From positions 1 through 64,000 of the forward strand of contig JABJJN010000076.1 in the NCBI GenBank assembly GCA_018660835.1: a stretch of DNA of 64,000 bases, read 5' to 3'. The notes under the pieces were generated by a model. It did no database searches. It was given only the letters and a program-made list of their open reading frames with translations, and was not told the DNA's origin. This DNA comes from Gemmatimonadota bacterium. Its GTDB lineage: Bacteria > Latescibacterota > UBA2968 > UBA8231. Positions within the stretch are counted from its first letter, which is position 1. The number at the start of each line of letters is the position of its first letter. This document shows, in pieces, positions 28,489 to 36,859 of the stretch. Made by a program: the position numbers and the translations under genes.

Positions 28489-29553
28489 ATGTTCATAGAT
28501 GAAGTCTCTCTCACTCTCACCTCCGGCGCAGGTGGCGATGGATGTATGAGCTTTCGCCGCGAGAAATTTGTCCCCCGCGGTGGGCCGGATGGCGGCGATG
28601 GAGGCGATGGTGGTCATGTTATTCTGTACACGGACGACAAACTTTCTACCCTTGTAGATCTGCGGTATCGACCGAAGATTGCCGCCGATCGAGGTGGCCA
28701 TGGCAAGGGCAAGAAGCTGACCGGTGCTCGTGGTGAGAATGCGGTCATTCGAGTCCCACCGGGAACGCAGGTGCGCGATGACGAGGGTGGCATCGTGGCT
28801 GATCTACTGACCCCCGGGGACGAACTGGTCTTGCTCAAAGGTGGTCGTGGTGGCAGGGGCAATGCCCGCTTCGCTACTTCGACGGATCAAGCCCCCCGTC
28901 GTGCAGATCGCGGACGCCCAGGTCGCGAGACGGTGGTTCATCTCGAACTGAAACTTCTGGCCGACATTGGCCTGGTAGGTTTTCCAAATGCCGGAAAGTC
29001 CACGTTGTTGTCGCGCGTATCGGCGGCCCACCCAAAGATCGCCGACTACCCCTTTACCACCCTCGAACCAAATCTCGGTATCGTTCGATTCGGTGAGTTC
29101 GACAGCTTTGTCCTGGCTGATCTACCGGGGATTATCGAGGGGGCGCACGAGGGGAAGGGGCTCGGTATCCGGTTTCTGAAGCACATTGAACGCACACGAA
29201 TCCTGTTGTTCGCTCTCGACGCAACGGGGGACGATCAGGCCGAGCAATTCGAAGCACTGCGCAAAGAATTGGGAAGTTTCAATCCTGCACTGCTCGAGAA
29301 GCCGCTGGCACTTGCTTACACGAAGGCGGATTTGCTCACGGCCCAGCAGGCAGAAGAGTTCACCAATCCTCTCGCCGACCTTGGACTGCATCACTTCCTC
29401 ATCTCAGCCGTATCCGGCTATGGTCTCGATCAACTTGTACAGGCCCTCGGCAGCCAGGTTTCTTTGCAGCGCCAGCATTCCAAGGAACTGCTTGATGACG
29501 AGTCTCTCGATGATGATTCTCGAGAGGATTGCGACCTGGCAACTGGCAACTGA
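28489..29553 (+). CDS. obgE: GTPase ObgE/CgtA
   Basis: This is an essential GTPase of ribosome assembly and stress signalling. The N-terminal Obg domain is glycine-rich (SFRREKFVPRGGPDGGDGGDGG, about 17-40). The G domain has the P-loop GFPNAGKST (163-171), switch residues in YPFTTLEP, DLPG and a G4-like YTKAD. The C-terminal tail is short and acidic (DDESLDDDSREDCD). The ATG start lies 3 bases after the coaD stop. Its stop overlaps the dprA start (TGATG). Confidence 0.97.
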   Translation: MFIDEVSLTLTSGAGGDGCMSFRREKFVPRGGPDGGDGGDGGHVILYTDDKLSTLVDLRYRPKIAADRGGHGKGKKLTGARGENAVIRVPPGTQVRDDEGGIVADLLTPGDELVLLKGGRGGRGNARFATSTDQAPRRADRGRPGRETVVHLELKLLADIGLVGFPNAGKSTLLSRVSAAHPKIADYPFTTLEPNLGIVRFGEFDSFVLADLPGIIEGAHEGKGLGIRFLKHIERTRILLFALDATGDDQAEQFEALRKELGSFNPALLEKPLALAYTKADLLTAQQAEEFTNPLADLGLHHFLISAVSGYGLDQLVQALGSQVSLQRQHSKELLDDESLDDDSREDCDLATGN

Positions 29554-30683
29554 TGACTGATTCTGTCAGCAAACTGGAGCATGAGGCACTGCTCGCTCTA
29601 GGTCATCTGCCGCAGATTGGCCCGACTCGCGGACGGCGTCTCATTCACCTGTGTGGATCCGCTCAGCAGGCGCTTGCGGCCCCCACGGCCGTGTGGGAAG
29701 AAGCGTTGGGTCAGGCCTTTGTGCAGCGCCTCCAGCGACACGTACACCAGCCGAATTCGATTCGTTGGTCTCAGGAAGAATTGCGCAGACTTGCTGATCT
29801 GGGTGGCGAGTTGATCGGTTGGGGAGACGCCGACTATCCGAGTTGGCTCGCTCAAATCGATGCCCCTCCTCTGGCGTTGTATGCCCTGGGGAACCGGCAG
29901 CTACTACAATCTCCGGCGGTTGCCATCGTCGGTTCGCGGCGTTGCAGTAGTTACGGGCGGCGTGCCTCCGTGCAGTTGGCCGAGGATCTGGCAGGGCGTG
30001 GAATCACCATCGTCAGTGGCCTCGCACGAGGAATCGACGGTGCGGCACACGAAGGAGCGCTGCGAGTTGGCGGCGCCACGATCGGTGTACTCGGCTGCGG
30101 CGTGGATGTTACCTATCCGCGTGAACACAGAGGTCTGCAGCAGCAGGTCCAACGCGATGGACTCCTATTGGCCGAAGCGCCCATGGGAACGCCTCCTGAA
30201 GGTCGTGGTTTTCCGAAGCGCAACCGAATCGTGAGCGGTCTTGCTCTGGCGGTCATCGTCGTCGAGGCGCCACAGCGAAGCGGGGCTCTGATGACGGCCC
30301 GCCTGGCACGAGAGCAAGGTCGGGATGTCTTCGCCGTACCGGGGGAGATCACAAATCCACGCTGCGCGGGTTGTCTTGCGTTGCTGCGAGATGGTGCCGG
30401 TCTGGTGCGCACGGCCCAGGATGTGATCGATGAACTGGAAGTACACCTGCCACAGGCAGCGAGTGCAGAGGCAGTACAGTTGTCGCCAGGGGGCGACGAT
30501 TCTGGCGTTGCCGCGTCGGGGGCCACGTTGCTTGATGCGCTGACATCCGGTGAGCACGGCGTCGAGTCGCTGGCGCGACAAGTGGGACAATCTATCGATG
30601 TCGTGCAGCAGGCACTGTTGCGGCTCGAATTGTCGGGTCACGTTGTGCGCCTGCCAGGGCAGCGATACGCCCGGGCCAGCTAG
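29553..30683 (+). CDS. dprA: DNA-processing protein DprA
   Basis: DprA loads RecA onto incoming single-stranded DNA during natural transformation. It has about 376 residues: an N-terminal helix-hairpin-helix-like region (LPQIGPTRGRRLIHLCG), a Rossmann-fold core with VAIVGSRRCSSYGRR, IVSGLARGIDGAAHEGAL and GCGVDVTYPREHR, and the FPKRNRIVSGL and GALMTARLAREQGRDVFAVPG motifs. A winged-helix C-terminus ends about GHVVRLPGQRY. Its start overlaps the obgE stop. With the ComEA-like and Pil-like genes upstream it supports natural competence. Confidence 0.96.
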   Translation: MTDSVSKLEHEALLALGHLPQIGPTRGRRLIHLCGSAQQALAAPTAVWEEALGQAFVQRLQRHVHQPNSIRWSQEELRRLADLGGELIGWGDADYPSWLAQIDAPPLALYALGNRQLLQSPAVAIVGSRRCSSYGRRASVQLAEDLAGRGITIVSGLARGIDGAAHEGALRVGGATIGVLGCGVDVTYPREHRGLQQQVQRDGLLLAEAPMGTPPEGRGFPKRNRIVSGLALAVIVVEAPQRSGALMTARLAREQGRDVFAVPGEITNPRCAGCLALLRDGAGLVRTAQDVIDELEVHLPQAASAEAVQLSPGGDDSGVAASGATLLDALTSGEHGVESLARQVGQSIDVVQQALLRLELSGHVVRLPGQRYARAS

Positions 30684-30706: not shown

Positions 30707-30889
30707 CTACTTCCGGTTGGGGGCCGACTCGATCTGCATCAGTTCACCCTCGCCCGCCGCATTCGCAGCACATCCACCGCAGCTTCCGCTCGTCTCTGAG
30801 CCATGAGGGCTGAAGGCACGCCACAGGTGCACGACACTCCAACCTATCAAGAGGTAGACGGCCAGAGTCTGCCAGTCGATGGAAGTCAT
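30707..30889 (-). CDS. FeoB-associated Cys-rich membrane protein
   Basis: This is a 60-residue single-helix protein: hydrophobic TLAVYLLIGWSVVHLWRAF, then a cytoplasmic tail with GSCGGCAANAAG. This is the layout of the small Cys-rich proteins often encoded after feoB, which may bind iron or aid FeoB. The start overlaps the feoB stop by ATGA, so it is translationally coupled. The tail converges on dprA with 23 bases between. Confidence 0.82.
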   Translation of the reverse strand: MTSIDWQTLAVYLLIGWSVVHLWRAFSPHGSETSGSCGGCAANAAGEGELMQIESAPNRK

Positions 30890-33087
30890 CCGAGCCCTCC
30901 TGCGCCCCATCCCATGTACTCGGCCGTTTGATAGACGATGAAGGCGCCGATGTATGCCAGTGCCGTCATATAGCCGAATGAGAGTCCGACCCAGCCCCAG
31001 GAGCCCATTTCTCGCCGGATAACAGCCAGGGTCGAAGTACACTGTGCGCAGAGAGCGAAAAAGACCATCACCGACAGGGCAACGGGCGTATCAACGGGTT
31101 CACCATCGGCACCAGGTGACGTTCGCAGAGCAGATCGCAGATCCTGCGATGTTTCGTCCGTATCCCCTCCCAGGCTGTAGATCGTGCCGAGGGTGGAAAT
31201 AATCAACTCTCGCGCGGGAAAGGAGGCGAGGGCAGCCATGCCCAACTGCCAGTCCCAGCCAAGAGGACGCACGACCGGTTCAATGAAATGCCCCGCCTGA
31301 CCCAGGTAAGAGGCCTCTAGCAGAGCCGTGGATTCGGCGTGATCGATTGCCCTGAGGATGTCGACACGTGTTTGATCGGGAAACCGTTCGGCTGTCTGAC
31401 GCCGTTTGTCGAATTCATCCGTGATCTCGACAGAATGCGGGTAGTAGGCGAGGGCCCACATGATGATTGTGGCGGCAAGAATGATACTGCCGGCGCGAAC
31501 GACGAATTCCCGACTATTCAGATAGACCCGCATGAGTACGACCTTGGGCACGGGCCATTTGTACGATGGCAGCTCGATGAGGAAGGGCGTCGACTCGCCA
31601 CGAAGCAAGGTTCGGCGCAGGAGCATCGCGACCGGTATGGCAACACCCGCACCCACACCATACATCGCCAACAGGGTCAGCCCCTGCAATCCGAGCCAAC
31701 TACCCAGAACCGGTCGGTCGGGTATAAAGGCAGCGATAAACAACACATACACAGGTAGCCGCGCGGAGCAACTCATCAGAGGCGCCACAAGGATCGTTAC
31801 ATAGCGATCGCGCCGGTCGGAGATCGCCCGAGCCGCCAGGATACCCGGCACGGCGCAGGCAAAACTCGAGAGCATGGGAATAAAGGACCGTCCGGACAAT
31901 CCACAGAAACGCAGCAAGCGGTCCATCATCATTGCGGCTCGAGCCATGTAACCACAGTCCTCGAGGAGGGAGATGATGAGAAAGAGGATGGCGATCTGTG
32001 GCAGAAAAATGAGGACACCACCCACACCGGCAATCACTCCATCCACAACGAGACTCTGTAGCGGTCCTTCACTGATCAGACTGCCGACACTGTCGCCAAG
32101 TTGGCCGAAGAGTCGGTCAATGGCGTCCATCAGAGGTGCGGACCAGGTGAAGATGCCCTGAAAGGTGGCGGCGCTGATCAGGAGAAACACGGCCAGTCCG
32201 GCGATGCGGTGCGTCAGGACACGATCGATTCGATCGGAGTGTCGGGGACGCAGTGTCTCATCTCCCCGCAATGTATCAGCGACGATTTCTGCAATCCACG
32301 CGTAGCGAGCCTCACTCTCGACGGAGGACAGAGGTCCGTCGGCGTGGATTGTTTCGCGCAGTTCGGCGATACGAAGGCGAAGCGGTTGGCCTTCTGTCGC
32401 GATGGCTCGCCGCTCGAGATGGCCGTCGACGTCGACGAGGACACGCAAGGCTTCAACGGAACTGTTGAAGGACGCGTCGTCGCCCCTGCAAAGCTCACCA
32501 GCTGCTGCGATCAATCCCTTCGGCAGATGTGTCTGAGTCGGTTCTGGACGATCGCGCTGCAGAGCGGCATCGATGGCATGGATGAGATCGTCGATCCCTG
32601 TTCCACGGTGTGATGTGAGGGGGACGATCGGTATTCCAAGTCGCGACGACAGAGCGTCTACGTCGACGTGTATATCACGGTCCTGTGCAAGATCCATCAT
32701 GTTGAGGCCGAGAACAACACGATGACCTGTCTCGAGAATCTGAGAAAGCAGGTAGAGATGACGACGAAGGTTGCTGGCGTCGGCGATGGCGACGACCAGG
32801 TCGATCGGCGGCGCACCTTCTTGCTGTCCCAGAAGCACATCGACGGCGATGGCCTCATCTGGTGAGGAGGCAGACAGTGAATATGTGCCGGGCAGATCGA
32901 TGATCTGCGCTTTCCCCGACTGCGGCAATTGGGCCTGACCAGCCGAATACTGCACCGTCACACCGGGGTAGTTGCCGACGCGTTGGGACAGGCCTGTGAG
33001 TGCGTTGAAGAGGGTGGTCTTCCCCGTATTGGGGTTGCCGACGAGCGCAATTGCGTGGCCAGATGTTGGGAGTTGTTCAGACATCAC
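30886..33087 (-). CDS. feoB: Ferrous iron transporter FeoB
   Basis: FeoB imports Fe(II) across the inner membrane. It has 733 residues: an N-terminal G domain with GNPNTGKTTLFN (G1), DLPGTYSL (G3) and NMMD (G4), a helical spacer, and a transmembrane domain with conserved core segments SSFACAVPGILAARAI and LVAPLMSCSARLPVY. Length and motif order match the family. feoA lies 56 bases upstream and the Cys-rich gene overlaps downstream, so the three form an operon. Confidence 0.97.
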   Translation of the reverse strand: MMSEQLPTSGHAIALVGNPNTGKTTLFNALTGLSQRVGNYPGVTVQYSAGQAQLPQSGKAQIIDLPGTYSLSASSPDEAIAVDVLLGQQEGAPPIDLVVAIADASNLRRHLYLLSQILETGHRVVLGLNMMDLAQDRDIHVDVDALSSRLGIPIVPLTSHRGTGIDDLIHAIDAALQRDRPEPTQTHLPKGLIAAAGELCRGDDASFNSSVEALRVLVDVDGHLERRAIATEGQPLRLRIAELRETIHADGPLSSVESEARYAWIAEIVADTLRGDETLRPRHSDRIDRVLTHRIAGLAVFLLISAATFQGIFTWSAPLMDAIDRLFGQLGDSVGSLISEGPLQSLVVDGVIAGVGGVLIFLPQIAILFLIISLLEDCGYMARAAMMMDRLLRFCGLSGRSFIPMLSSFACAVPGILAARAISDRRDRYVTILVAPLMSCSARLPVYVLFIAAFIPDRPVLGSWLGLQGLTLLAMYGVGAGVAIPVAMLLRRTLLRGESTPFLIELPSYKWPVPKVVLMRVYLNSREFVVRAGSIILAATIIMWALAYYPHSVEITDEFDKRRQTAERFPDQTRVDILRAIDHAESTALLEASYLGQAGHFIEPVVRPLGWDWQLGMAALASFPARELIISTLGTIYSLGGDTDETSQDLRSALRTSPGADGEPVDTPVALSVMVFFALCAQCTSTLAVIRREMGSWGWVGLSFGYMTALAYIGAFIVYQTAEYMGWGAGGLG

Positions 33088-33142
33088 AAGCTCAGCCGCT
33101 ACTGCGCTTCAACGATCCGGTCCTGGTTTCCTTTAGTTGCCG

Positions 33143-33442
33143 TCAGGCGACGGCAGGTACGGCGCCAACACGAACAGCGCTGCAATCTTCACGGCGCAGA
33201 GCCAGGCGGGCATCGCCTGTCTGCACGACCAGATGGGCGCCGGTACGCAATACACGAATCAGTGTTCCGGGCAGAATCCCCAATTCGCGCAAACGGGCGG
33301 AGAGTCTGTCCCCACCGGGCAACTCCAGAACGACGGCGTCACAATCCCTACGCCAATCGGACAAGCAAGCCTCTGTCGGTTCACTTGCGTGCTTCTGCGC
33401 TTCGCCGATCGTTACACCCAACACTGTCAAGGTGGCCTTCAA
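33143..33442 (-). CDS. feoA: Ferrous iron transport protein FeoA
   Basis: This is an SH3-like small protein of up to 99 residues that assists FeoB. The family core AVVLELPGGDRLSARLRELGILPGTLIRVL is followed by GAHLVVQTGDARLALRREDCSAVRV, as in FeoA. The start is TTG at 33442 with GAAAG just before it; a later start is possible because the first 30 residues are not typical. A hairpin (33138-33155) overlaps its stop codon and may tune feoB expression, but it lacks a T run. Confidence 0.88.
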   Translation of the reverse strand: MKATLTVLGVTIGEAQKHASEPTEACLSDWRRDCDAVVLELPGGDRLSARLRELGILPGTLIRVLRTGAHLVVQTGDARLALRREDCSAVRVGAVPAVA

Positions 33443-33449
33443 TCTTTCG

Positions 33450-33492
33450 TTTGGTAATCCAAACAGACGGTTGGTACGGCTAAAGATACCAA
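33450..33492. promoter_or_regulatory. Paired inverted repeats upstream of feoA
   Basis: TTTGG-TAAT-CCAAA (33450-33463) and TTGGTA-N10-TACCAA (33471-33492) sit immediately upstream of feoA, in the divergent gap shared with the porin operon. Their position and symmetry fit operator sites for an iron-responsive repressor (Fur or DtxR class). Neither matches a textbook consensus well, so this is a guess from location. Confidence 0.35.
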
Positions 33493-33657
33493 GGTGTCCT
33501 TAAAGCGCAAGCTTGAGGGCAAAATAGCTAACAGCCTCAAATTATCAGTGGTTGCACGATTTCCTGTTGACCAATTTGACCGTCGTGTTTAGGTTGCAGC
33601 TCCAATGTTTGGCATGTGAAACATAAATGATCCAACAAGAACAGGATTAATCGTCAG

Positions 33658-34740
33658 ATGATCAAGTATCTACAGTTCGTGGTCCTGTTTTCAGGATGTG
33701 TCCTCCTGAATACATCCATCGCTGAGGCGCAGCGCTCATCTGTCCCAGGTGGCAGCAATGACAAGCCCCATCTGCGTGGTGGATTCGAAGGGACTGTTCT
33801 TGGTGGCTACATAGATCACGAGCTGTTCTGGACCGACTCCAAAAAGACCTTCGATCAGCACCGCTTTATTCCATTCATCCATGGACAGGTCAGTGATCGA
33901 ATCCACGTGATGGCGGAGATCGAATTCGAACATGGCGGATTGGTCAAAGGCAGTGGCACAAGTGACGGAGAAGTGAAGTTGGAGTTTGCCACGATCGATA
34001 TCGAGTTCGCCGAGTCGATTGTGTATCGCGCCGGTGTGATTCTGTCTCCCCTTGGAAGATTCAATCTGTTGCACGACAGTCCACTCAATGATCTGACAAA
34101 TCGTCCCCTTGTGGCCCGTGCGATCATCCCAACGACCTTGGCTGAGTCAGGGATGGGTCTCCATGGGACCTTATATCCATCAGAAAATGCGCTTGTGGGT
34201 TACGAACTCTATCTCGTAAACGGGTTCAATGAGTCGGCCGCAACCAGCCTGCGCTCGGGGCGCGGCAGTCAGAAGGCCGACAACAACGAAGAGAAGTCAC
34301 TTGTCGGTCGGCTGAATTATTCACCCATGCTCGGCGTAGATCTCGGAGGCTCCTTTCACGTTGGCGCCTATGACGACGCCGGAGAGCATACGCTGGCGAT
34401 TTACGCGGTGGACGGAAATTTCCATCGCGGGCCCCTTGATCTGCGCGGAGAATTCGCCACGGCCAATGTGGATGGAGCTGAAGAGGATGGGCGCTCAGGA
34501 TTCTACGGTCAGGTAGCCTATCACTTCCTGCCAGGTGTCTTGCGGCAGTTTCCGAATTCGACCTTCACTTTCGCCGGTAGATATGATCACATCGATTTGG
34601 GAAATGGCGATGAAACTCGCTACACAGTAGGGGTGAATTTTCGCCCGGAAGAAGAGACGGTGATCAAGTTGGATTACGAGGTGTACGATCGGAATGATGA
34701 CAGCAATGGATTGATTTTCTCCGTCGCTTCCTACTTTTAG
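33658..34740 (+). CDS. Outer-membrane porin, phosphate-selective (OprP/OprO)-like
   Basis: This is a 360-residue beta-barrel protein. A signal peptide (LQFVVLFSGCVLLNTSIAEA) is followed by alternating strands, with HVMAEIEFEHGG, GVILSPLGRFNLLHD and a C-terminal GLIFSVASYF ending in Phe, as outer-membrane barrels do. The PLGRFN region is reminiscent of OprP/OprO-type porins. It faces feoA across a divergent gap and is followed by an FMN-binding protein 15 bases later, so it probably belongs to a four-gene cassette. Confidence 0.75.
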   Translation: MIKYLQFVVLFSGCVLLNTSIAEAQRSSVPGGSNDKPHLRGGFEGTVLGGYIDHELFWTDSKKTFDQHRFIPFIHGQVSDRIHVMAEIEFEHGGLVKGSGTSDGEVKLEFATIDIEFAESIVYRAGVILSPLGRFNLLHDSPLNDLTNRPLVARAIIPTTLAESGMGLHGTLYPSENALVGYELYLVNGFNESAATSLRSGRGSQKADNNEEKSLVGRLNYSPMLGVDLGGSFHVGAYDDAGEHTLAIYAVDGNFHRGPLDLRGEFATANVDGAEEDGRSGFYGQVAYHFLPGVLRQFPNSTFTFAGRYDHIDLGNGDETRYTVGVNFRPEEETVIKLDYEVYDRNDDSNGLIFSVASYF

Positions 34741-34755
34741 TTCATCTTCTAATCC

Positions 34756-35358
34756 ATGGCTAACGTGCGAAATCCGTCCATCCTTATCGCAGTGGCGCTC
34801 TTGTTGTCTGGAACCGGCATCCAAGGCCAGGCAACACCTACGGCGGAGCAGATCGGCTCGGTACAAGTCTACCTCACCGAGACCCAGGCAAGAGACCAGA
34901 TTTTCCCCGATGCCGTGGCCTTTGAGCGCCGTGTTGATCTGCTCGACAGCACCGCCCGCGCTGGCGTCGGGGAGCGCCTGGGGCGACGCATTGAAGATGA
35001 TTCCTTTGCCGTTTATATTGCGCGCGATGCACAGGATCGGCTGTTGGGGTATACGGCAGTCACCGAGCAGGTGGGCAAGTATCGCCCGATCACCTTCATG
35101 GTGGGGGTCAAGCCGGATCTCAGCATTCACGAAGTCGCGGTACTCGTCTATCGCGAGAGTCGCGGCGGCCAGGTGCGACGGTCAAGATTTCTGCGTCAGT
35201 ATCGGGGCAAGGACAGCGACGATTCCATCCGTATCAACCAAGACATTATCAATATCACCGGAGCCACACTGTCCGTGCGTGCCCTCAATTTTGGTGTGCG
35301 CAAGACACTGGCCCTCTTCGAGTTGGTCTATCGCGAGTCGCGTGCTACGAGCCGCTGA
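34756..35358 (+). CDS. Secreted FMN-binding domain protein
   Basis: This is a 200-residue exported protein with a signal peptide (PSILIAVALLLSGTGIQG). It ends with INITGATLSVRALNFGVRK, the [ST]GAT-type site where flavin transferase (ApbE) attaches FMN to a threonine (about residue 171), as in RnfG and NqrC. The body LLGYTAVTEQVGKYRPITFMVGV fits the FMN-binding fold. It probably carries electrons in the periplasm. It lies between a porin and a membrane protein, and no apbE is present in the window. Confidence 0.85.
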   Translation: MANVRNPSILIAVALLLSGTGIQGQATPTAEQIGSVQVYLTETQARDQIFPDAVAFERRVDLLDSTARAGVGERLGRRIEDDSFAVYIARDAQDRLLGYTAVTEQVGKYRPITFMVGVKPDLSIHEVAVLVYRESRGGQVRRSRFLRQYRGKDSDDSIRINQDIINITGATLSVRALNFGVRKTLALFELVYRESRATSR

Positions 35359-35384
35359 CTGCGGTCCAACTCCATCGGCAATCC

Positions 35385-35891
35385 ATGCGTTACTTCACTA
35401 ATCGATCACTCCTTGCTCGCATGGACCTGAATACCAAGTTGATCATGACGTATTTCCTGGTTTTCATGCTTGCTGGTTCCGCGTTTTCCATCTACATGTC
35501 CTACGAACGTACTCGTCTCAACGATGATGGTGCCGTTGCCTATTATGCCGGCGACGAGCAAAACATGCAGTTTCCGAAACAAGCGACGGAGCTGACGGAA
35601 ACAACGCACTTCCATTTCTTTATCATGCCCATCATCTTCCTGACGACGGGTCACCTGTTCTTGATGAGTGCGTGGAGTCAGCGATGGAAGACCTTCGTCA
35701 TCAGTTCTTGTTTCGTCTATATCTGCCTCGATCTGGCCAAGCCCTGGTTGATCCGCTACGGCACTCCCGGTTTCGGCATTCTGGCACCGATTAACTCTGC
35801 CCTGCTTGGAATGACCATGTTGCTTTGTGTCGTGATTCCTCTCTATGAGATGTGGTTTCTCCGCATCGAACGACGGGAACATCCGCACTAG
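35385..35891 (+). CDS. Four-helix membrane protein with conserved-looking histidines
   Basis: This is a 168-residue inner-membrane protein with four predicted helices (about 18-40, 76-98, 103-125, 130-156). The second begins with THFHFF (His75, His77) and has a third His at 90 (TTGHLF), about one helix length further in. Such spacing could ligate heme b or a metal, which would suit electron transfer to the neighbouring FMN protein. This is inference; no named family is recognised. The start is 35385, with ATG 35421 an alternative. Confidence 0.65.
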   Translation: MRYFTNRSLLARMDLNTKLIMTYFLVFMLAGSAFSIYMSYERTRLNDDGAVAYYAGDEQNMQFPKQATELTETTHFHFFIMPIIFLTTGHLFLMSAWSQRWKTFVISSCFVYICLDLAKPWLIRYGTPGFGILAPINSALLGMTMLLCVVIPLYEMWFLRIERREHPH

Positions 35892-35938
35892 CTAACATCG
35901 CAATCAACCACAGTTCGGTGTGTGAACGTGCACGAAAG

Positions 35939-36859
35939 ATGACGACTATGATGATCAGGATCGGGTATATCGCTCTCGGACTTGTCCTGGCGGGTGTTGT
36001 GCCTTCGCTGGCGGCAGACACCGAGGACTTCTACGAATACTGGGGAGACGGTCGCGCCGAGCTCTCGAGCTATCGCGTGGTGCAGTCTCGCTATGGTGAG
36101 GCCCGGGAGGGGCACAGTGTGCTCATTTTCGTGACGGAAGAGATCAATCGGCAGACACTGGTGAAAGTGGAGTCCGATCAGCCACAGGAAGACCGCGTCT
36201 ATACGCTGAAGCTGAACAAGACACTGAAATTCCTCACCGGTATCTATCCCTATTCGGTGATGACGAGTGTCTTCAGTGCCGTCGAGGGTGGCCCATCCGA
36301 ACCAGCAAGACCCTTCGAGGCTCGCAAGATCACACTCAGTGCACAGGAGTGGTGCGGTCACGTGTTCGAGGAGGTCAAGCTGCAGGACGACGCGATCTCC
36401 GGAGATCTAAACAGCTATTTCGAACGCGAGGGTAAGCAGGAGTGGGAGTTCAAACGCCCTGCGAATTTCGTCAGCGAAGACCACCTGCCCATTGAACTGA
36501 GAGAACTCAAGGGGGCATTCATGGCGACAGGCGAGATACGTGAAGTGACTATGTTGCCGTCGTTGTGGCAGTTCCGTATGCGCCACAAGGCGCGTGATCT
36601 TGTTACCGCGACGATCGCGAAGGGGACGGCAGAGGCCGTGCACATAGACGGCGTTACTTATTCGGCCATCCCATGGACATGGAGCTATCCGTCGAGAGAA
36701 GTGACCATGTGGGTGGATACTGTCTATCCGCGTCGAATCCTGCGATGGCAGGACAATGACGGCAGCAGTGCCGAACTGCTCGCATCCGTGCGGCTGCCGT
36801 ACTGGCAACTGAACGATGCTGGACACGAGGTGCATCGTGAGCAGTTGAGGCTGCCGTAG
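35939..36859 (+). CDS. Conserved secreted protein of unknown function
   Basis: This protein has about 306 residues and a signal peptide (GYIALGLVLAGVVPSLAA). The mature start DTEDFYEYWGDGRAELSSYRVVQSRYGEAREG and end SVRLPYWQLNDAGHE match a family I recall seeing labelled as septum formation inhibitor Maf in some genomes. It has none of the Maf nucleotide pyrophosphatase motifs, so that name looks wrong. It is predicted beta-rich and periplasmic. It is the last gene of the porin/FMN/membrane cassette. The start is uncertain between ATG 35939 and 35948. Confidence 0.7.
   Translation: MTTMMIRIGYIALGLVLAGVVPSLAADTEDFYEYWGDGRAELSSYRVVQSRYGEAREGHSVLIFVTEEINRQTLVKVESDQPQEDRVYTLKLNKTLKFLTGIYPYSVMTSVFSAVEGGPSEPARPFEARKITLSAQEWCGHVFEEVKLQDDAISGDLNSYFEREGKQEWEFKRPANFVSEDHLPIELRELKGAFMATGEIREVTMLPSLWQFRMRHKARDLVTATIAKGTAEAVHIDGVTYSAIPWTWSYPSREVTMWVDTVYPRRILRWQDNDGSSAELLASVRLPYWQLNDAGHEVHREQLRLP

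Follow-up and report, generated by a model that had tools for sequence, protein, structure and literature searches.

A porin, flavoprotein and four-helix membrane protein trio beside feoAB: a candidate iron-reduction module recurring across bacterial phyla

The feoAB locus and the porin-flavoprotein-Hmem trio

The stretch of DNA analysed here, the window, covers positions 1 to 64,000 of one contig (G000:C15:1-64000) of a 7.09-Mb genome (G000), whose family relatives were deposited under the labels Latescibacterota, Handelsmanbacteria and Gemmatimonadetes, the last of which is probably a mislabelling. As a preliminary description of the window had proposed, feoA, feoB and a gene for a small Cys-rich membrane protein were found to run opposite four plus-strand genes (Table 1). 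Three of the four, coding for a porin, a secreted flavin mononucleotide (FMN)-binding protein and a four-helix inner-membrane protein, here called Hmem, are consecutive with gaps of 15-26 bp, and it is this trio that we consider a candidate module for the reduction of iron.

Table 1. Positions of the genes and palindromes of the locus within the window
Feature	Position	Strand	Basis or remark
Small Cys-rich membrane protein, 3' of feoB, 60 residues from ATG	30707..30889	-	sequence
FeoB, ferrous iron transporter	30886..33087	-	TIGR00437, 482 bits, 2.4e-144, above curated cut-off
FeoA, divergent from the trio	33143..33442	-	PF04023, 1.6e-10
Palindrome GTTTGGTAATCCAAAC, 6 bp upstream of feoA start	33449..33464		perfect GTTTGGN4CCAAAC; proposed DtxR-type operator
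Second palindrome GTTTGGCATGTGAAAC, 35 bp upstream of porin start	33607..33622		14/16 match
Porin, 360 residues, first gene of the trio	33658..34740	+	PF07396, 5.4e-7
Secreted FMN_bind protein, 200 residues, predicted ApbE substrate	34756..35358	+	PF04205, 5.6e-8; motif DIINITGATLS
Hmem, four-helix inner-membrane protein, 168 residues	35385..35891	+	alignments, AlphaFold2
Secreted protein, no family match, outside the trio	35939..36859	+	own sequence; gene context

The outer-membrane barrel, the secreted FMN protein and the four-helix histidine protein of that description all stood up to closer analysis. The AlphaFold2 model of the porin is a 16-strand barrel (predicted local distance difference test, pLDDT, 79.5) that in Foldseek was most similar to general porins of the OmpU/OmpC type (E 1e-12); as to a relation to OprP/OprO, the profile match to Porin P (2o4v) was weak (E 3e-4, with PF07396 at 5e-7). 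The FMN_bind protein carries the (S/T)GA(S/T)x(S/T) flavinylation motif, a strict form of which is present in 82 of 105 FMN proteins of such cassettes, and it is accordingly predicted to be modified by ApbE. A single ApbE, which the preliminary description had recommended looking for, was found in G000, away from the trio and beside secD. It is not specific to the trio, since FMN_bind genes of the NqrC/RnfG type are present in G000 as well; outside the trio, FMN_bind genes are found in Nqr-like, Rnf-like and Fer4_5-protein contexts, and the Nqr-like and Rnf-like clusters (L127, L128) each have an FMN_bind subunit of their own.

Hmem was modelled as four long helices with high confidence (pLDDT 90.4). 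In an alignment of 28 members from many phyla, E69, E72, H75, F76, H77 and H90 are invariant, giving the signature ExxExxHxH...H, and in three divergent members from the same phylum as the window H75 is the sole histidine retained. According to the alignment and the model the three histidines all lie within one helix (67-93). No Pfam or NCBIfam family was found for Hmem, the matches of 28 scanned members included none to PF03929, PF16357, PF01794 or DUF4405, and a fold search of the PDB gave no significant match. Positive residues, found at the N-terminus and within the short loop that precedes helix 3, suggest that E69, E72, H75 and H77 are on the periplasmic side and H90 on the cytoplasmic side, the sidedness required of a transmembrane redox relay.

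The unit was examined in a comparison of 25 family genomes, 12 of which carry Hmem. In all nine genomes that have both on one contig, feoB-feoA is divergent from porin-FMN-Hmem. The preliminary description had included the secreted protein in a cassette of four; the porin, FMN and Hmem genes do recur together across phyla, but the secreted protein was rejected as a member, as it stays at feoA in genomes that have no trio, where its gene adjoins feoA directly, and lies about 3.8 kb from Hmem in L021 and L025. It follows that the slot filled by the trio lies between feoA and the gene for the secreted protein, and that the trio was gained or lost there as a block. In these two loci (L021:4027-7824, L025:4096-8271) a large hydantoinase/oxoprolinase-like gene stands between Hmem and the secreted-protein gene. 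Since it is kept beside feoA where the trio is lacking, the secreted protein of the window (35939-36859) may itself be connected with feoAB or else with the sulfatase encoded downstream.

Several further observations concern the same neighbourhood. The feoAB-adjacent slot of G017 holds a DUF6662 outer-membrane-type protein and no trio (L118:6280-7119), and a DUF6662-family protein also neighbours FMN-Hmem elsewhere (L068, 522-1304). The dprA gene (window 29529-30683) adjoins feoB in the G000 family and is also found near the trio in the Nitrospira-like loci L160, L163, L167 and L194. The small Cys-rich protein had no family match; an open reading frame 48% identical to its gene occupies the equivalent position in G001.

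Proposed operators and iron genes around the trio

The palindromes in front of feoA and of the porin gene are proposed to be operators of a DtxR-type metalloregulator. These two intergenic copies are the sole sites of such strength in the window, and no equally good site (0) arose in ten Markov shuffles of it. When three genomes (G000, G001 and G007) were searched for the perfect pattern GTTTGG-N4-CCAAAC, it was found once in each, every time in the feoA-porin interval. Both sides carry a strong copy in sister loci L022, L023, L025 and L026, one copy is strong and the other weaker in L027 and L021, and the copies in L029 and L030 are weak; of the loci without the trio, several retain a strong copy close to feoA, and L115 and L121 have none. 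Some variants, for example TTTAGGTATACCTAAT in L118, are similar to DtxR/MntR-type sites. Sites with one mismatch were not clearly commoner than those of a reversed control pattern, so that a wider regulon could not be drawn, and in the feoA-porin interval of the window no E. coli-type Fur box rose above background. At a second feo locus of the genome (L126:5663-8454, G000:C50), the gene for a Fe_dep_repr_C-FeoA fusion of DtxR type (L126:5663-6703) precedes that for a second FeoB, and this fusion protein is a candidate regulator of the window palindromes.

Relatives of Hmem were found by alignment search in genomes labelled Nitrospirae, Planctomycetes, Verrucomicrobia, Oligoflexia, Deltaproteobacteria, Armatimonadetes and Margulisbacteria, most of them with porin and FMN_bind genes as neighbours and often with ApbE fused or adjacent. 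With weaker and partial matches included, Hmem was counted in 154 of 396 sampled Nitrospirota genomes, in 71 of 392 genomes from the phylum of G074 and in 24 of 395 from that of G077. The trio is likewise present in Desulfobacterota-like genomes, and its recurrent gene order across phyla argues that the arrangement is not due to chance. The preliminary description had looked to conservation next to feoAB: this adjacency held on every family contig with both, but in most other phyla the trio occurs without feoAB. That description had named just such a distribution as refuting its proposal; taken literally, the distribution is what was found, yet in substance the proposal is not refuted, because in Nitrospirota other iron systems replace feoAB.

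Forty Nitrospirota neighbourhoods were scored for FbpA, FbpB, FbpC, Fur, FTR1 and FeoB inside the retrieved stretch, and 31 of them hold FbpABC, Fur, FTR1 or, once, FeoB (near the trio in L190). FbpA was identified in 30 of 40 Nitrospirota genomes with Hmem versus 2 of 20 without it, and in 22 of the 30 genomes having both it lies on the same contig within about 12 kb of Hmem. The best PDB matches of this FbpA are to ferric-binding proteins (E 2.7e-40), and the best NCBIfam model for the Nitrospirota Fur is the ferric uptake regulator, with a score below the model cut-off. In L060 the genes for Fur, FbpA, FbpB, FbpC, porin, FMN protein and Hmem are contiguous on one strand, and L181 combines Fur, a cupredoxin, FTR1, porin, ApbE/FMN and Hmem. 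When Pfam families were counted for 115 neighbours at about 30 representative loci, FUR came first, and in an Armatimonadetes genome (L054) a DtxR-FeoA protein adjoins the trio.

Iron-regulator sites, which the preliminary description had also suggested looking for, were found at the promoters, as the DtxR-like palindrome in the window and as Fur boxes in other phyla. Scored against the E. coli 19-bp consensus, sites of at least 15/19 were present in 18 of 33 Nitrospirota porin-upstream regions versus 2 of 283 controls (one of these two upstream of FbpA), a contrast whose p-value is inflated by the relatedness of the genomes, which are not independent. The best of these boxes is TATAATGATAATCATTATC in L188; Fur-box sites at this threshold numbered 59 in 741 kb near versus 18 in 992 kb away, and loci of the Desulfobacterota-like, Oligoflexia and Manganitrophaceae groups also have upstream sites. 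Together with the shared operator, the links to Fur, FbpABC and FTR1 back an iron role beyond the adjacency to feoAB, though not in every lineage.

A possible route for iron and competing explanations

We propose that Fe(III) or its complexes would cross the outer membrane through the porin into the periplasm, where the flavoprotein would reduce Fe(III) to Fe(II) and thereby release the iron from its ligands. Hmem, in the inner membrane, would hand electrons from the quinol pool or from a b-type cytochrome to the covalent FMN, and FeoAB would take up the Fe(II). Expression would be shut off by an iron-sensing repressor, of DtxR type in the G000 lineage and Fur in other phyla. The sequences show the gene identities, the recurring trio, the flavinylation motif, the adjacency or fusion to ApbE elsewhere, the shared operator and the association with iron genes and Fur boxes; from these we infer the electron path, Fe(III) as substrate, the cofactor of Hmem, the flow through the porin and the identity of the repressor, with ferric reduction as the best mechanism. 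It is on balance likely that the three proteins make up a transenvelope module for the reduction of iron, serving whichever importer the cell has, and the trio is probably a system, found nowhere described, that reduces iron before or during uptake. For the full reading, a cross-phylum iron-acquisition reductase of porin, flavinylated protein and Hmem as a novel family of electron carriers, under Fur or DtxR control, partnered by FeoAB, FbpABC or FTR1 and present in many Nitrospira-like genomes, we put the probability at roughly 0.55.

Several results weigh against this reading. FbpABC imports Fe(III), so that reduction is not obviously needed beside it and release or redox cycling has to be invoked; there the module would act by freeing iron from its complexes ahead of re-oxidation, and this partnership is the weakest point of the reduction model. 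With its conserved histidines confined to one helix, Hmem lacks the pairing on different helices expected of a bis-His heme protein, and such a heme would call for a homodimer or for a ligand from elsewhere; dimerisation, which any heme of Hmem would presumably require, was proposed for the heme sites of FezC (PMC11334425). When the Fur-box data were collapsed to 28 Hmem clusters, the median reached at least 15 in five and any member did so in eight, with 6 of 315 among the controls. FeoB is kept in 11 of 13 family genomes without the trio, so feoAB does not depend on the trio, which is optional. No iron importer was seen near the lipoprotein-ApbE/FMN-Hmem sets of anammox-like Planctomycetes (L200-L212) or near several Desulfobacterota-like loci.

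These last loci also favour the main rival, namely that the trio is a general periplasmic or extracellular electron-transfer module, respiratory in nature, which passes quinol electrons through Hmem and FMN to a lineage-specific terminal acceptor and was recruited mainly for iron, iron uptake being one use and not one found everywhere. Some of the anammox-like loci, L205 among them, have a cytochrome c7-type protein. In L229 a b561-type cytochrome follows Hmem, and some Desulfobacterota-like loci encode a b561 cytochrome. Neither feoAB nor Fur was found near the cassettes of three same-phylum relatives (L032-L034), whose neighbours are a histidine kinase, CO dehydrogenase or hemA and CxxCH proteins; in L032 (726-9606) the order is Hmem-porin-ApbE-FMN, beside a histidine kinase, CooC and CO dehydrogenase. 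Against this explanation stand the rank of FUR among the neighbour families, upstream Fur boxes that extend beyond Nitrospirota, and an operator common to the feoA and porin promoters of G000, and we regard it as rather unlikely.

It might also be argued that the trio has nothing to do with iron, serving for example phosphate or nitrogen metabolism, and that its place beside feoAB is an inherited neighbourhood. The genes obgE and dprA are conserved neighbours in the family loci as well, feoAB persists in 11 genomes without the trio, and the Pfam name of the porin family is 'phosphate-selective porin'. The porin model, however, is like general 16-strand porins, no phosphate or nitrogen family was present among the 25 commonest neighbour families shown, the palindrome at both promoters is otherwise unique, and the links to FbpABC, FTR1, FeoB and Fur in another phylum are independent and come in differing gene orders, which leaves this alternative very improbable. 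Least plausible of all, to our mind, is that the module oxidises or redox-cycles periplasmic iron, from Fe(II) to Fe(III), on behalf of FbpA or FTR1. Such a role would suit the FbpA and FTR1/cupredoxin partners of Nitrospirota, but FeoAB in G000 and FeoB in L190 require Fe(II), and ApbE-flavinylated proteins are mainly known as electron donors to extracytosolic acceptors (PMC8238504).

Significance and comparison with known systems

If the iron-acquisition reductase is real, it would give a function to the unnamed Hmem family, so frequent in Nitrospirota and present in other phyla, and would constitute a widespread iron system of nitrifiers, given the many Nitrospira-like genomes. The known link between protein flavinylation and iron assimilation would gain a dedicated pore in the outer membrane and a distinct component in the inner one, and importers that are interchangeable around one reductive core would make iron reduction a separable, portable step of uptake. 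The Fur boxes and the flavinylation motif yield clear predictions, so that the proposal is directly testable.

The composition porin-FMN-Hmem, Hmem itself and the partnership with FeoAB or FbpABC are undescribed in the literature searched, which covered few subscription journals, and no description of FbpABC together with an ApbE/FMN cassette, the arrangement seen in Nitrospirota, was found there. The general kind is already known, as clusters joining flavinylation and iron have been published (PMC8238504; PMC5449479). The run of feoA, feoB and a Cys-rich membrane gene matches FeoAB systems with a small Cys-rich protein, to which the window adds a divergent flavoprotein cassette with a palindrome in common. 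Hmem, like the DUF4405/FezC membrane cytochromes (PMC11334425), is a small His-containing membrane protein with a connection to flavinylation or iron; there are six helices and four histidines in DUF4405, whereas Hmem has four helices with its conserved histidines in one, and no sequence match between them is detectable. The bifidobacterial sifABCDE locus, a transport locus induced by iron limitation, includes the FMN-binding SifE, called a predicted ferric reductase (PMC5449479), and so resembles the trio in placing an FMN-binding protein within an iron-linked transport locus, but it is Gram-positive, uses a different transporter and has no porin or Hmem.

Closest are the flavinylation-iron transporter clusters of PepSY-like, MsrQ-like and P19/FTR1-FMN_bind type, for which assimilatory iron reduction was proposed (PMC8238504; the word 'porin' is absent from its main text). 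They share with the trio a secreted ApbE-flavinylated domain beside iron transporters and Fur control, the latter in their PepSY-like clusters. The trio differs from them in having Hmem, which matches none of PF03929, PF16357 and PF01794, in beginning with a dedicated porin, and in being partnered by FeoAB or FbpABC and not by VIT1.

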